64,000 nucleotides of DNA from Alphaproteobacteria bacterium. GTDB lineage: Bacteria > Pseudomonadota > Alphaproteobacteria > Rhizobiales > JAJFHR01. The stretch lies in NCBI GenBank assembly GCA_024278055.1, contig JAJRTY010000167.1, forward strand, positions 30,990-94,989, in the 5' to 3' direction. The notes below the pieces were generated by a model that worked only from the letters and a program-made list of their open reading frames with translations, searched no databases and was not told where the DNA came from. A program made the translations under genes and the position numbers. Positions 6,501 to 64,000 of the stretch are shown here, in pieces. Position 1 is the stretch's first letter. Each line of letters opens with the position of its first letter.

Positions 6501-7182
6501 CAATTTCTTCCTCTTCTTTTTCTGGGATATTCAAACGCAGGGTTAAGCGCCGCACACCTGTCGCATCAGCCCTGCCTGCCCGCAATGAAAATTCCCGGGC
6601 CTGTCCAGCTAGCAGCAATTCACCGTTTGCCGCATAGGGCCCGACCAGCGCGCGCGCTGAAATCCGGGCATTGATGCCTGACACATCATAGGCAACCCGG
6701 CGTCTGGCATCTCTGAAAAACACCGAACCACTGGAAATGAGAACATCATCAAGAATAATGTTCTGAAGATCCATCAACTCGCCAAAGTTGGTGGCAGTCT
6801 TGATTTGCCAGTTGGGAACCCCACGCATAGAAACATCAAACCGAAAGGTCGGGCGCACAAGCTCCACATCGGTGAATTGAAATTTACCCCGCAACAGCGG
6901 CGCCAGAGCAAGCCGGGCTTTAACCTGCGCTATGCTGGCAAGGGCGGCACTGTCGCGATCATCGGGGGATTTGACCTCAACGCTGCCCAGACGAATAGTG
7001 CCGATGGGCAATATCCGAATATCTATGTCGCCGTTAATGCTGACCTGACGACCCAGTATTCTTGCAGCTTCATTCTCAATTTCCGCGCGATAGGCCGTCC
7101 AGTTGATTAAAAACGGCGCAATTAAAGCGGTGAACAAAATCACCACAATCAATCCACACGCCATGAGGAGTGGATGTTTCAC
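3577..7182 (-). CDS. AsmA-family envelope protein
   Basis: A 1201-aa protein with one N-terminal membrane anchor (LLMACGLIVVILFTALIAPFLI) followed by a long beta-rich periplasmic region. The N-terminal AsmA hallmark 'NWTAYRAEIENEAARILGRQVSINGDIDIRILP' is clear. The C-terminal part (AMNGAGVLQIEDGVLNGINP...) matches the AsmA_2-type domain. AsmA-like proteins belong to the repeating-beta-groove/VPS13-like group implicated in moving phospholipids between the membranes or in outer-membrane assembly. A basic, coiled-coil-like tail (KQLEKLEEEARQRLKNKK) ends the protein. It has no operon partner on the same strand: the nearest gene upstream is 152 bp away and the gene downstream is convergent. Confidence 0.85.
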   Translation of the reverse strand: MKHPLLMACGLIVVILFTALIAPFLINWTAYRAEIENEAARILGRQVSINGDIDIRILPIGTIRLGSVEVKSPDDRDSAALASIAQVKARLALAPLLRGKFQFTDVELVRPTFRFDVSMRGVPNWQIKTATNFGELMDLQNIILDDVLISSGSVFFRDARRRVAYDVSGINARISARALVGPYAANGELLLAGQAREFSLRAGRADATGVRRLTLRLNIPEKEEEEIVFDGLLDTSDQGPRFDGKLIINQDIGELEFFKTIAPGAKEKFFGKLEAKIATSFVGIQLENIKAVISQGATASRFSGRAQALWQNSSEFIVELYSKRLDLDNLLGLAGAAGKGAKKTPSQKVKLIEPRPASATMAWFLSLMADALPGLNGNGFGGRILLGLDTVVVGGLAIEKSVLKLRFADNHVEVLEASGNLPGRSRLTVKGLFLTRAKTARFDGVFDFNSLNAKDFTRWLVPSLDPLMGSRVSGYSGRLSATGKLKVAPKSIDLLEMDVKLDETQASAGLSYALRQRPAFGLALSIDQINLDRYFPPDQLKAGSSQGGFPGAQIIKDIANLFVRFDANIRLSVGSLISRGIAVRGLAADVGLEAGKLTIKKFDFADIGGSSLTTKGTISDINGKPAGVLEASLTAPDPTDLFEMLGIGDNNPDVAKGFGPLNLDISFKSSFEGGHPHHLFRINGSAGGTDISSRFLLLGKLNEFARSRLDFEAEASNQNGARLLTQLGWAKPGDVKPSSQVGIFRARIKGDVNKRLEVDFGLEAYGASGNLSGVLARVDGEPRLEADVAVMSEDARSLLSVLHVPLNDGSDETLPLSFKGTLAGKISELVLTGFEGKVGKTPVSLNATMVLGGDVPIVTAEVKTSEMSFPWAFDAVFGGGIKPGTAEPDNDQVWSAQPFDLGRLRIADLKVDLLVDRLATETTVIKNVRAKIHSRRGKFDLKQLTGKLYGGDLSLKATLDDVNGALKLNSEYSLDGGELEQIARPKEKRWAIGGKAYISGNVKAEGRSVRGLFSAMNGAGVLQIEDGVLNGINPTPFATALASIETEGELNSLVDGLLVEGQMSYGNLDTSFTINNGLVATTDLRFESESVSGQTSLVIDLSVYRLDNEWRFSFTDFPGSPALLLLYTGPVNAPERNFDAEGLREFLVVKTLQDSVKQLEKLEEEARQRLKNKKLIERSPLPLIPEPTVSSTDSNAPASVN

Positions 7183-23268: not shown

Positions 23269-23283
23269 GCAGTGAAATTCTTC

Positions 23284-23443
23284 AAAGCCCCTCCTCCTTG
23301 TGGGGAGGGGTTGGGGTGGGGGTCTTCTTAAACTTCAACTTCTCATAAGGTGCTGATTAACAAGATCAGTGTGAATGCGCCAAGGCGCATACTTGACCTC
23401 TTTACCCCCCACCCTCAATCCCTCCCCACAAGGAGGAGGGAGG
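23284..23443. repeat. MITE-like dispersed element, copy 1
   Basis: A ~160-bp intergenic element bounded by G/C-rich inverted repeats. The left end is CCCCTCCTCCTTGTGGGG with AGGGGTTGGGGTGGGGG; the right end is its near reverse complement. A second copy in opposite orientation lies at 56050-56201. The two share both ends almost base for base and an inner motif GTGAATGCGC..GGCGCATAC (GGTGCATAC in copy 2), while the remaining interior differs. No ORF is inside. It sits between the MFS gene and marR. Short C/G-rich palindromes around CTTGTGGGGAGG are widespread in Hyphomicrobiales intergenic DNA. Confidence 0.8.
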
Positions 23444-56049: not shown

Positions 56050-56201
56050 CCTCCCTCCCCCTTGTGGGGAGGGATTGAGGGTGGGGGTTAAAGAATTCAT
56101 GTATGCACCAAGCGCATTCACAATCCTGCTGTCGATAAAAAACTCGCGCATTGATAGCGCAACCCCCACCCCAACCCCTCCCCACAAGGGGGAGGGGCTT
56201 T
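56050..56201. repeat. MITE-like dispersed element, copy 2 (inverted relative to copy 1)
   Basis: A ~152-bp element. Read in reverse complement it matches copy 1 at both ends (GCCCCTCCCCCTTGTGGGG; CCACCCTCAATCCCTCCCC) and in the inner GTGAATGCGC..GGTGCATAC motif, with different filler between. It lies in the 283-bp gap between soxB and the GbdR-like gene and ends about 11 bp before that gene's likely TTG start, so it could affect expression of both divergent genes. Confidence 0.8.
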
Positions 56202-56212
56202 AAGGGCTATAT

Positions 56213-61515: not shown

Positions 61516-62631
61516 TTGAAAAATAAGATTGGAACGCCTCTCGATCGGCGGAATCTCCTGTCCAGAGGCCTTGTTCTGGCTGGCGGCAGTGCCCTGGGCG
61601 GGCTTGGCGTTGCAGAAGCCAGTGCGGCCAGCGATGGTCAAAAAACAGATATAGATCCAAAATCCCACCGTATGAGCGATAATATGGCGATGGGAACCAT
61701 TGGTGATGTTGGCACCGATATCAATGGATTTGATGCCACCGAAATGCTCACCGACTGGGACACCGGAATTGTCTCACAGGACAATGACGGCCGCACGGTT
61801 CGAACCTACACCATCGAAGCCATCGACAAAGATATCGAAATCGCCCCCGGCGTTATCTTCCCGGCCTGGACCTTCAATGGCCGCGTTCCCGGCCCCGCCC
61901 TGCGTGCAACAGAGGGCGATCGCCTGCGTATTATCTTTCGCAACCTTGGCTCCCATCCCCACTCCCTGCATTTTCACGGCATTCATTCAGCCCGAATGGA
62001 TGGCATCCCCGGAACGCCGGGCATGATTGATCCCGGCGAGGAATTTATTTACGAGTTCGATGCCCAGCCCTTTGGCTGCCATCTCTATCATTGCCACGCA
62101 TTACCACTGACGCGTCACATGCACAAAGGCATGTATGGCGCTTTCATCGTCGATCCCGATCCTGAAAAGCATGCCGAATTTGCCGATGTGGCAAGATCAC
62201 GTCTGCTGGGTTCACCGGAAAATGAAAACTGGCAGGAACTGGTTATGGTGATGAACGCCTTTGACACCAATTTTGATGGTGAAAACGAGTTTTATGCCGT
62301 CAACACCATCTCCAACCACTATCTCAACCATCCAATCCGGGTTGAAAAATCCCGCCCCATCCGCATCTACCTAATCAATGTGACAGAGTTTGACCCCATC
62401 AACTCATTTCACCTGCATGCAAATTTTTACGACTATTATGACCACGGCACCACGCTCACCCCCACCTTGCGCAATGTCGATACCATCATGCAATGTCAGG
62501 CCCAGCGCGGCATACTGGAAATGTCATTTGCCGATCATGAGCCCGGAAAATACATGTTTCATGCCCATCAGGCCGAATTTACCGAACTGGGCTGGATGTC
62601 TTTGCTCGACGTGGTGGAGGATGAAACATGA
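61516..62631 (+). CDS. Tat-exported two-domain multicopper oxidase
   Basis: A 371-aa exported protein. TTG 61516 follows AGGAG at good spacing; the track start 61465 has none. The N-terminus has a Tat motif (DRRNLLSRGLVLAGGSALGG). Domain 1 holds LHFHGIH and the Cys/His/Met cluster GCHLYHCHALPLTRHMHKGMYG, a type 1 copper site; domain 2 holds SFHLHANFY and YMFHAHQAEF for the trinuclear centre. T1 copper lies in domain 1 only, as in nitrite-reductase-like two-domain MCOs. The substrate (a metal or phenolic) is not decidable. It is translationally coupled to the ZIP gene (ATGA). Confidence 0.85.
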   Translation: MKNKIGTPLDRRNLLSRGLVLAGGSALGGLGVAEASAASDGQKTDIDPKSHRMSDNMAMGTIGDVGTDINGFDATEMLTDWDTGIVSQDNDGRTVRTYTIEAIDKDIEIAPGVIFPAWTFNGRVPGPALRATEGDRLRIIFRNLGSHPHSLHFHGIHSARMDGIPGTPGMIDPGEEFIYEFDAQPFGCHLYHCHALPLTRHMHKGMYGAFIVDPDPEKHAEFADVARSRLLGSPENENWQELVMVMNAFDTNFDGENEFYAVNTISNHYLNHPIRVEKSRPIRIYLINVTEFDPINSFHLHANFYDYYDHGTTLTPTLRNVDTIMQCQAQRGILEMSFADHEPGKYMFHAHQAEFTELGWMSLLDVVEDET

Positions 62632-63815
62632 GCACATCAGATCAACAGCCCGAGACCCATCGCAGCGTCAGTTGGCTTATCGTTTACATAACAACGCCGT
62701 TGCTCCTCCTTTTGATGGCTGGGGCGTGGTTGATTAGCAGCGATCCTCTGGCGCTGTTTGACAGCGATGTGCCACCGGTTGAAAACCTGACTATTGAGCG
62801 CGTTTTCCTTGATGATAGCGGAATTAACATCAAAGTCCGCGCTGGTGGCGATGAACCCATGACCATCGCCCAGGTTCAGGTCGACAGCGCTTATTGGACG
62901 TTTACGCAAACGCCTGCCGGGCCTTTAACGCGGGTATCTTCCGCCTGGCTCAAAATTCCCTACCCCTGGGTTCAGGGTGAAGCACATCTGATACGGCTGG
63001 TTACCAACACCGGCGCAACCTTTGAACATCAAATCGAAATTGCCGTCGCCACTCCAAAAAATCAGACCGGCAGCCTGGGCATTCAGGCTCTGGTCGGCGG
63101 CTTCGTTGGAATTTTACCCGTTGCCATCGGCCTGATGTTTTACCCGCTGATGCGCTCGATGCAACGCGATGGCATGCGGTTTTTCCTCGCCCTCACCATC
63201 GGTATGCTGGCGTTTTTACTGATTGATACGCTGGAGGCAGCGCTTGAGTTCGGTCGCACAGCCGCACCAGCCTTTCAGGGAACAGCCCTGGTGCTTCTGG
63301 TCGCCGCCATGACCTGTCTGGGCCTGATTGCCATCGGGCGACGACAGGGCGCACCCACAGGCCTGGCACTGGCCACCTATGTAGCGCTTGGCATCGGCTT
63401 GCACAATTTTGGCGAAGGCCTCGCAATCGGCACCGCACTGGCCGCAGGCTCTGCCGGTCTTGGTGCCTTTCTGGTGATCGGTTTCACCGTCCATAACCTC
63501 ACCGAAGGCATCGCCATTGCCGCCCCTCTGGTCAAGAAGAAACCATCTATGACGATGTTTGCCGGTCTTGCCCTTTTAGCGGGCGCACCGGCGATTCCCG
63601 GCATCTGGCTTGGCAGCTACGCCATTGAGCCTCAATGGGCCGCCCTGGCGCTGGCAATTGCCACCGGAGCAATCCTTCAGGTCCTGTTCGAAGTCGGCAC
63701 CTATACGGTTCGCAATGATAAAAGTGGTCAGATAACCCTGGACCGTTACGCCATCGGCGGCCTGTTTTTTGGCATAGTGTTTATGTATCTCACTGCCATG
63801 GTGATCAAGATTTAA
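62628..63815 (+). CDS. ZIP-family metal transporter with N-terminal periplasmic domain
   Basis: A 395-aa membrane protein. The C-terminal part is ZIP-like: GIGLHNFGEGLAIGTAL and GFTVHNLTEGIAIAAP are the two HNxxEG metal-binding helices. Before it come an N-terminal helix (SWLIVYITTPLLLLLMAGAWL) and a ~100-residue beta-rich segment (IERVFLDDSGINIKVRAGG...AYWTFTQT), probably periplasmic. ZIPs move Zn, Fe, Mn or similar into the cytosol. Coupling to a multicopper oxidase suggests oxidation-linked metal handling. The gene's last ~57 bp are mirrored at the right end of the window. Confidence 0.86.
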   Translation: MSTSDQQPETHRSVSWLIVYITTPLLLLLMAGAWLISSDPLALFDSDVPPVENLTIERVFLDDSGINIKVRAGGDEPMTIAQVQVDSAYWTFTQTPAGPLTRVSSAWLKIPYPWVQGEAHLIRLVTNTGATFEHQIEIAVATPKNQTGSLGIQALVGGFVGILPVAIGLMFYPLMRSMQRDGMRFFLALTIGMLAFLLIDTLEAALEFGRTAAPAFQGTALVLLVAAMTCLGLIAIGRRQGAPTGLALATYVALGIGLHNFGEGLAIGTALAAGSAGLGAFLVIGFTVHNLTEGIAIAAPLVKKKPSMTMFAGLALLAGAPAIPGIWLGSYAIEPQWAALALAIATGAILQVLFEVGTYTVRNDKSGQITLDRYAIGGLFFGIVFMYLTAMVIKI

Positions 63816-64000
63816 CAGGCTCTTTAGGTCCTGAAGTCCTGAAGCCGGCCCGCTCCCCCTCCCAACCACCCCCAGGGTATCCTCATCGGGTGGTTGGGCG
63901 GGGGAGCGGGCCGGCTTCAGGACGTCAGGACCTAAAGAGCCTGTTAAATCTTGATCACCATGGCAGTGAGATACATAAACACTATGCCAAAAAACAGGCC
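63759..64000. repeat. Near-perfect 113-bp inverted repeat around a 16-nt loop
   Basis: The right arm (63888-64000) is the reverse complement of the left arm (63759-63871), with two mismatched pairs (63835/63924 and 63860/63899) and a loop at 63872-63887. The left arm contains the last codons of the ZIP gene plus its downstream hairpin (CCGGCCCGCTCCCCC). The outer part, including all coding sequence, is perfectly mirrored. The arm may continue beyond the window. Confidence 0.95.
63944..64000 (-). CDS. Mirrored C-terminal fragment of the ZIP transporter (partial)
   Basis: On the minus strand, the window end encodes ...GLFFGIVFMYLTAMVIKI followed by TAA (63944-63946), identical in nucleotide sequence to the end of the ZIP gene at 63759-63815. 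It is either the end of an inverted second copy that continues beyond the window or an artefact of fold-back assembly. Confidence 0.6.
   Translation of the reverse strand, partial: GLFFGIVFMYLTAMVIKI

Follow-up and report, generated by a model that had tools for sequence, protein, structure and literature searches.

The mirrored end of a ZIP transporter gene is almost certainly an artefact of a contig that folds back at a natural repeated hairpin

The window analyzed here (the whole stretch of 64,000 nucleotides, G000:C117:30990-94989, where G000 is the window's own genome) ends in a mirror image of the last part of a gene for a ZIP-family metal transporter. This mirrored end is almost certainly no feature of the genome but a fold-back artefact of the contig end, formed at a natural hairpin that occurs in many copies. 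The mirror ends exactly where contig C117 (94,989 bases) ends, and a different true continuation was located on another contig of the same genome. Recognizing the artefact keeps an inverted metal-transporter locus from being recorded in error and restores the real neighbour of the ZIP gene, which faces a cation-efflux gene across a single hairpin.

Structure of the mirrored end and the neighbour of the ZIP gene

A repeat search of the window identified two arms, at 63759-63871 and 63888-64000, that are 113 nt each in length, 98% complementary and separated by 16 nt. When the whole window was compared with itself, the E-value of this inverted repeat against chance was ~1e-102. These two analyses agree with the geometry given in an earlier sequence-only reading (113 bp arms, a 16-nt loop and two mismatched pairs). 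The DNA fold of the hairpin core has an energy of -61.1 kcal/mol, compared to a mean of -21.9 for shuffled sequences (z = -15.4). The mismatched pairs of the arms are 63835/63924 and 63860/63899. The earlier reading had placed both of these within the natural hairpin, which holds for 63860/63899 but not for 63835/63924, since the base at 63924 is a G that fits neither true arm, as judged from contig C103, which enters this hairpin from the side of the cation-efflux gene. On this comparison, the G at 63924 is an error or variant inside the false tail. Beyond it, bases 63925-64000 are the exact reverse complement of 63759-63834 (76 bases), a segment that covers the final 57 bases of the ZIP gene, stop codon included. 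When the genome was searched with the last 701 bases of the window, the ZIP flank that makes up the outer part of the mirror matched no other place. Only the middle of the mirror (approximately query 535-624, window 63834-63923) recurred, at ~40 places in the genome and in both orientations.

The features of the locus are listed in Table 1. The start codon of the multicopper-oxidase-like gene was picked by comparison with the ORF of the congener (G001), and the length of the hairpin arms was taken from the left arm on C117 and the arm on the C103 side.

Table 1. Features of the mirrored window end and hairpin copies examined (window positions)
Feature	Position	Strand	Evidence or remark
Multicopper-oxidase-like gene, upstream of ZIP	61516..62631	+	Pfam Cu-oxidase_3 (5e-24), Cu-oxidase_2 (1e-17)
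ZIP-family metal transporter gene	62628..63815	+	Pfam Zip (E 8e-7, under the curated cut-off)
Hairpin, one member of the dispersed palindrome family	63831-63923	.	arms ~41 bp; core recurrence, G001 orthologous site, DNA fold
Hairpin loop CCAGGGTATCCTCATC	63872-63887	.	16 nt
Mirror tail, almost certainly false	63924-64000	.	true continuation: cation-efflux side on C103
Family copies examined	L102, L026, L106, L103, L096, L098, L107-L114		shared core, locus-specific paired stems

The ZIP gene is 92% identical in G001, and a genome search of G000 gave this single match, with no second ZIP gene or locus. At the corresponding congener locus (L057, JAJFHS010000053.1 from a Hyphomicrobiales MAG, apparently G001:C49), a hairpin of the same family, with the loop CCAGGGTATCGTCATC, lies between the ZIP gene and a convergent cation-efflux gene downstream. 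In G000, contig C103 has this cation-efflux gene (of the zinc-transporter family; Pfam Cation_efflux, 5e-42) as its last gene. Downstream of ZIP, C103 and L057 are collinear, with 83.8-87.5% identity across the three long blocks of C103. The last 252 bases of C103 also fold back, running from the end of the cation-efflux gene into the hairpin, with the same loop as that of C117, and out again into the complement of the cation-efflux end. Because C103 folds back from the other side, the ZIP-hairpin-cation efflux arrangement is almost certainly one real junction that was split into two self-folded contigs. Based on this comparison, the real chromosome almost certainly carries, in order, the ZIP gene, ~15 bp, a hairpin of the dispersed family and the convergent cation-efflux gene. 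The congener layout, the fold-back of C103 and the presence of a single ZIP gene all support the earlier proposal that a natural imperfect hairpin had either primed snap-back synthesis or led an assembler to join the two strands.

Further fold-backs at hairpins of this family are found on C103, C150 and C157. Those that open contigs C150 (272 bp; L090, C150:1-272) and C157 (283 bp) are each centred on a different copy from that of the ZIP locus, and the tails of the four fold-backs differ, extending 121, 126, 136 and 141 bases past the centre. A partner for the C157 fold-back, sought via the SDR gene that neighbours the site in the congener, was not found. At the C150 site, G001 has no hairpin, and the other flank of this site in G000 sits on C54, beside a hairpin copy. 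The opposite side of C54 maps to G001 contig C25 and not to C10. Because its two sides map to different G001 contigs, C54 was most likely joined wrongly via the hairpin repeat, a real rearrangement being the other possible reading. Of the 434 contig ends in the genome, ~25 fall in or beside the hairpin family, so that this one family of palindromes accounts for these ends as well as for at least one likely misjoin.

Origin of the turn

We propose that a read or graph path that runs out of the ZIP gene would enter the hairpin, in which the arms are nearly self-complementary and the core is common to ~40 other places. The path would then fail to cross to the cation-efflux gene and would return along the complement of the ZIP flank, stopping ~121 bases past the hairpin centre, while C103 would turn likewise from the cation-efflux side. 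The turn probably enters through snap-back (chimeric) reads made during library preparation or amplification, rather than through pure collapse of the arms in the graph. Library preparation yields chimeric reads at inverted repeats, with mismatched bases added (PMC10908179). In the tails of C117 (at 63924) and C103 (at two positions), there are bases that agree with neither the true arms nor the mirror, and single-base departures of this type are expected from erroneous chimeric reads. The tail lengths of 121-141 bases past the centre would be compatible with single short reads. A search of the literature found nothing directly on fold-back artefacts at the contig ends of assemblies.

The loop is crossed by C117 and C103 in the same orientation, each read from its own gene. 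As simple snap-back of one molecule predicts opposite orientations, this observation counts against it, and fits better with collapse of the arms in the graph or with a population that carries the loop both ways. In a purely graph-based route, chimeric molecules play no part: the arms collapse at a small word size and each gene is joined to its own complement. Such a route would explain why C117 and C103 use the same hairpin strand and the same loop orientation, and also C54, which appears to connect two loci via a hairpin copy. However, a re-walked path predicts an exact mirror, whereas the tails deviate at 63924 and at the two places on C103, and the deviating bases are absent from the true arms. 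The graph route alone is a credible but doubtful explanation of the turn, and chimeric reads, acting alone or with graph collapse, are somewhat ahead of it.

Two explanations would instead place the mirrored DNA in living cells. It is very unlikely that a minority of cells carry fold-back or hairpin-capped molecules, produced by cruciform resolution or arm recombination, that were then taken up by the assembler. The family does show homogenization of arms and inversion of loops between orthologues in vivo, and these hairpins probably join in template switching, but minority molecules of this kind would leave the loop in opposite orientations on either side of the hairpin, and the two contigs share one orientation; their tails are also short and terminate at contig ends. 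Even more improbable, to the point of being barely tenable, is a genuine inverted duplication in which the multicopper oxidase-ZIP locus is mirrored about the hairpin, which would give a long chromosomal palindrome. This was the alternative raised in the sequence-only reading, and the 76 bases beyond the hairpin that mirror the ZIP end exactly are what it would predict. It is contradicted by the presence of only one ZIP gene in the genome, with a unique flank, by the ordinary arrangement in the congener and by the termination of the mirror 121 bases past the centre, at the contig end. Furthermore, C103 both carries the cation-efflux side and folds back there, such that a duplication would need two incompatible palindromes at one hairpin.

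Two other candidates were rejected. A constant word-size overlap, with the 76-base exact mirror as an assembler signature, conflicts with the differing lengths of the four fold-back tails and with the varying length of the ends shared among contigs. An inversion polymorphism that explains both contigs without error does not predict the bases found at 63924 or in the C103 tail.

Distribution and evolution of the hairpin family

The core common to the copies of the family consists of the arm CCAGCCCGCTCCCCC[G]GCCCAACCACCC and the loop GATAAGGATACCCTGG or its reverse. The outer stem varies from locus to locus, with almost perfect pairing at every one. In G000 and G001, the internal copies measure ~77-134 bp. 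All 33 of the internal copies sampled are intergenic (three have a competing ORF call across them) and, by a simple ORF rule, their flanking genes are convergent at 11, tandem at 17 and divergent at 5. A search for the arm motif (GCTCCCCC, 0-3 bases, CCAACCACCC) gave 67 matches in the window's genome and none in a reversed control. Elsewhere among the 61 genomes searched, there were 14 matches in the congener G001, 17 in G039 (a more distant member of the same order) and one in G026, with none in the rest.

G039, with its 17 core matches, belongs to a different family of the order, and the other members of the order that were sampled have none, with the exception of the one in G026. Matches to the core motif sit at loci L115-L122 and L124 of G039 and at L123 of G026. 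This patchy occurrence suggests either horizontal spread or patchy survival of the hairpin. A subset of the family consists of a MITE-like version with the related ends CTAAGAGTCTGACTCAAAAGTC and GACTTTCGGGTCAGACACTTAG, and includes L018 (G000:C54, ~6826-6968) and L090 (C150:1-272). G001 is without a hairpin at two sites that are occupied in G000, and it has an empty site for a MITE-like copy upstream of pntA. Because a copy with related ends is absent at the corresponding place in G001, the MITE-like subset looks mobile. The window also contains a second dispersed family of inverted repeats, with ends such as CCCTCCCCCTTGTGGGGAGGG. Its two window copies (23280-23443 and 56050-56204) are ~78% alike and lie in opposite orientation, with inverted ends on each.

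The comparison of orthologous hairpins between G000 and G001 covered five internal loci and the ZIP-cation efflux locus, for which the G000 arm was assembled from C117 and C103. Across the six loci, 21 stem pairs have changed on both sides and are still paired, versus four changes after which one of the species has a mismatched pair; if the ZIP-cation efflux locus is excluded, these counts are 17 versus 2. Of these five internal loci, two (C85/G1_C42 and C146b/G1_C7) have the loop inverted between the species. Homogenization of arms and inversion of the spacer are outcomes of template switching between the arms of inverted repeats (PMC8604942). The paired stems and loop flips fit the signature published for template switching in vivo, although selection on the stems could also keep the pairs. 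A broader proposal is that this is an undescribed palindrome family of the Hyphomicrobiales lineage in which stems are rebuilt at each locus and loops flip by template switching in vivo, with the fold-backs partly reflecting hairpins that really do turn DNA synthesis. We consider this proposal speculative and rather unlikely. As a natural data set, the hairpin family can be used to study template switching in bacteria.

Relationship to known palindromes and artefacts

The hairpin beneath the fold-back is real and belongs to a known kind of element, the dispersed intergenic palindromes. At the congener locus, no rho-independent terminator was found at the hairpin by a scan that covers loops of 3-8 nt only (the loop here is 16 nt), and no T-run was seen by eye after the stem. 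No Rfam family matched at the gathering threshold, and the sub-threshold matches at the hairpin were mostly to microRNA models. Long hairpins in general tend to draw sub-threshold matches to such models.

Repetitive extragenic palindromes (REPs) and MITE-like stem-loop families (PMC12306157, PMC2267715) are, like the family characterized here, intergenic, dispersed, multi-copy palindromes with a common core. E. coli REPs are 14-40 nt in length (PMC12306157), whereas the palindromes here, which share the REP properties of multiple copies, intergenic position and common core, are much longer than those of E. coli, having arms of ~40-50 bp and a loop of 15-17 nt. They also differ from the REP and MITE-like families in that the outer stem varies from copy to copy.

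The fold-back itself resembles the PDSM chimeric reads (PMC10908179), in which a partial single strand anneals to its complement by way of a natural inverted repeat, and end repair then produces its own reverse complement, often with mismatches. Those are reads from human targeted sequencing, whereas the fold-backs described here are seen at the ends of assembled bacterial contigs. In the account given of Pacasus (PMC6218980), artificial palindromes that follow whole-genome amplification likewise arise when a strand folds on itself to give a palindromic molecule. The palindromes of that account are in long reads of amplified DNA, while the turning points here all belong to one natural hairpin family. 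Finally, the homogenization of arms and the inversion of the spacer between orthologous copies are shared with template switching between arms as described previously (PMC8604942, PMC8794818), although the earlier work dealt with yeast genes and RNA hairpins and the hairpins compared here form a dispersed family of bacterial palindromes.
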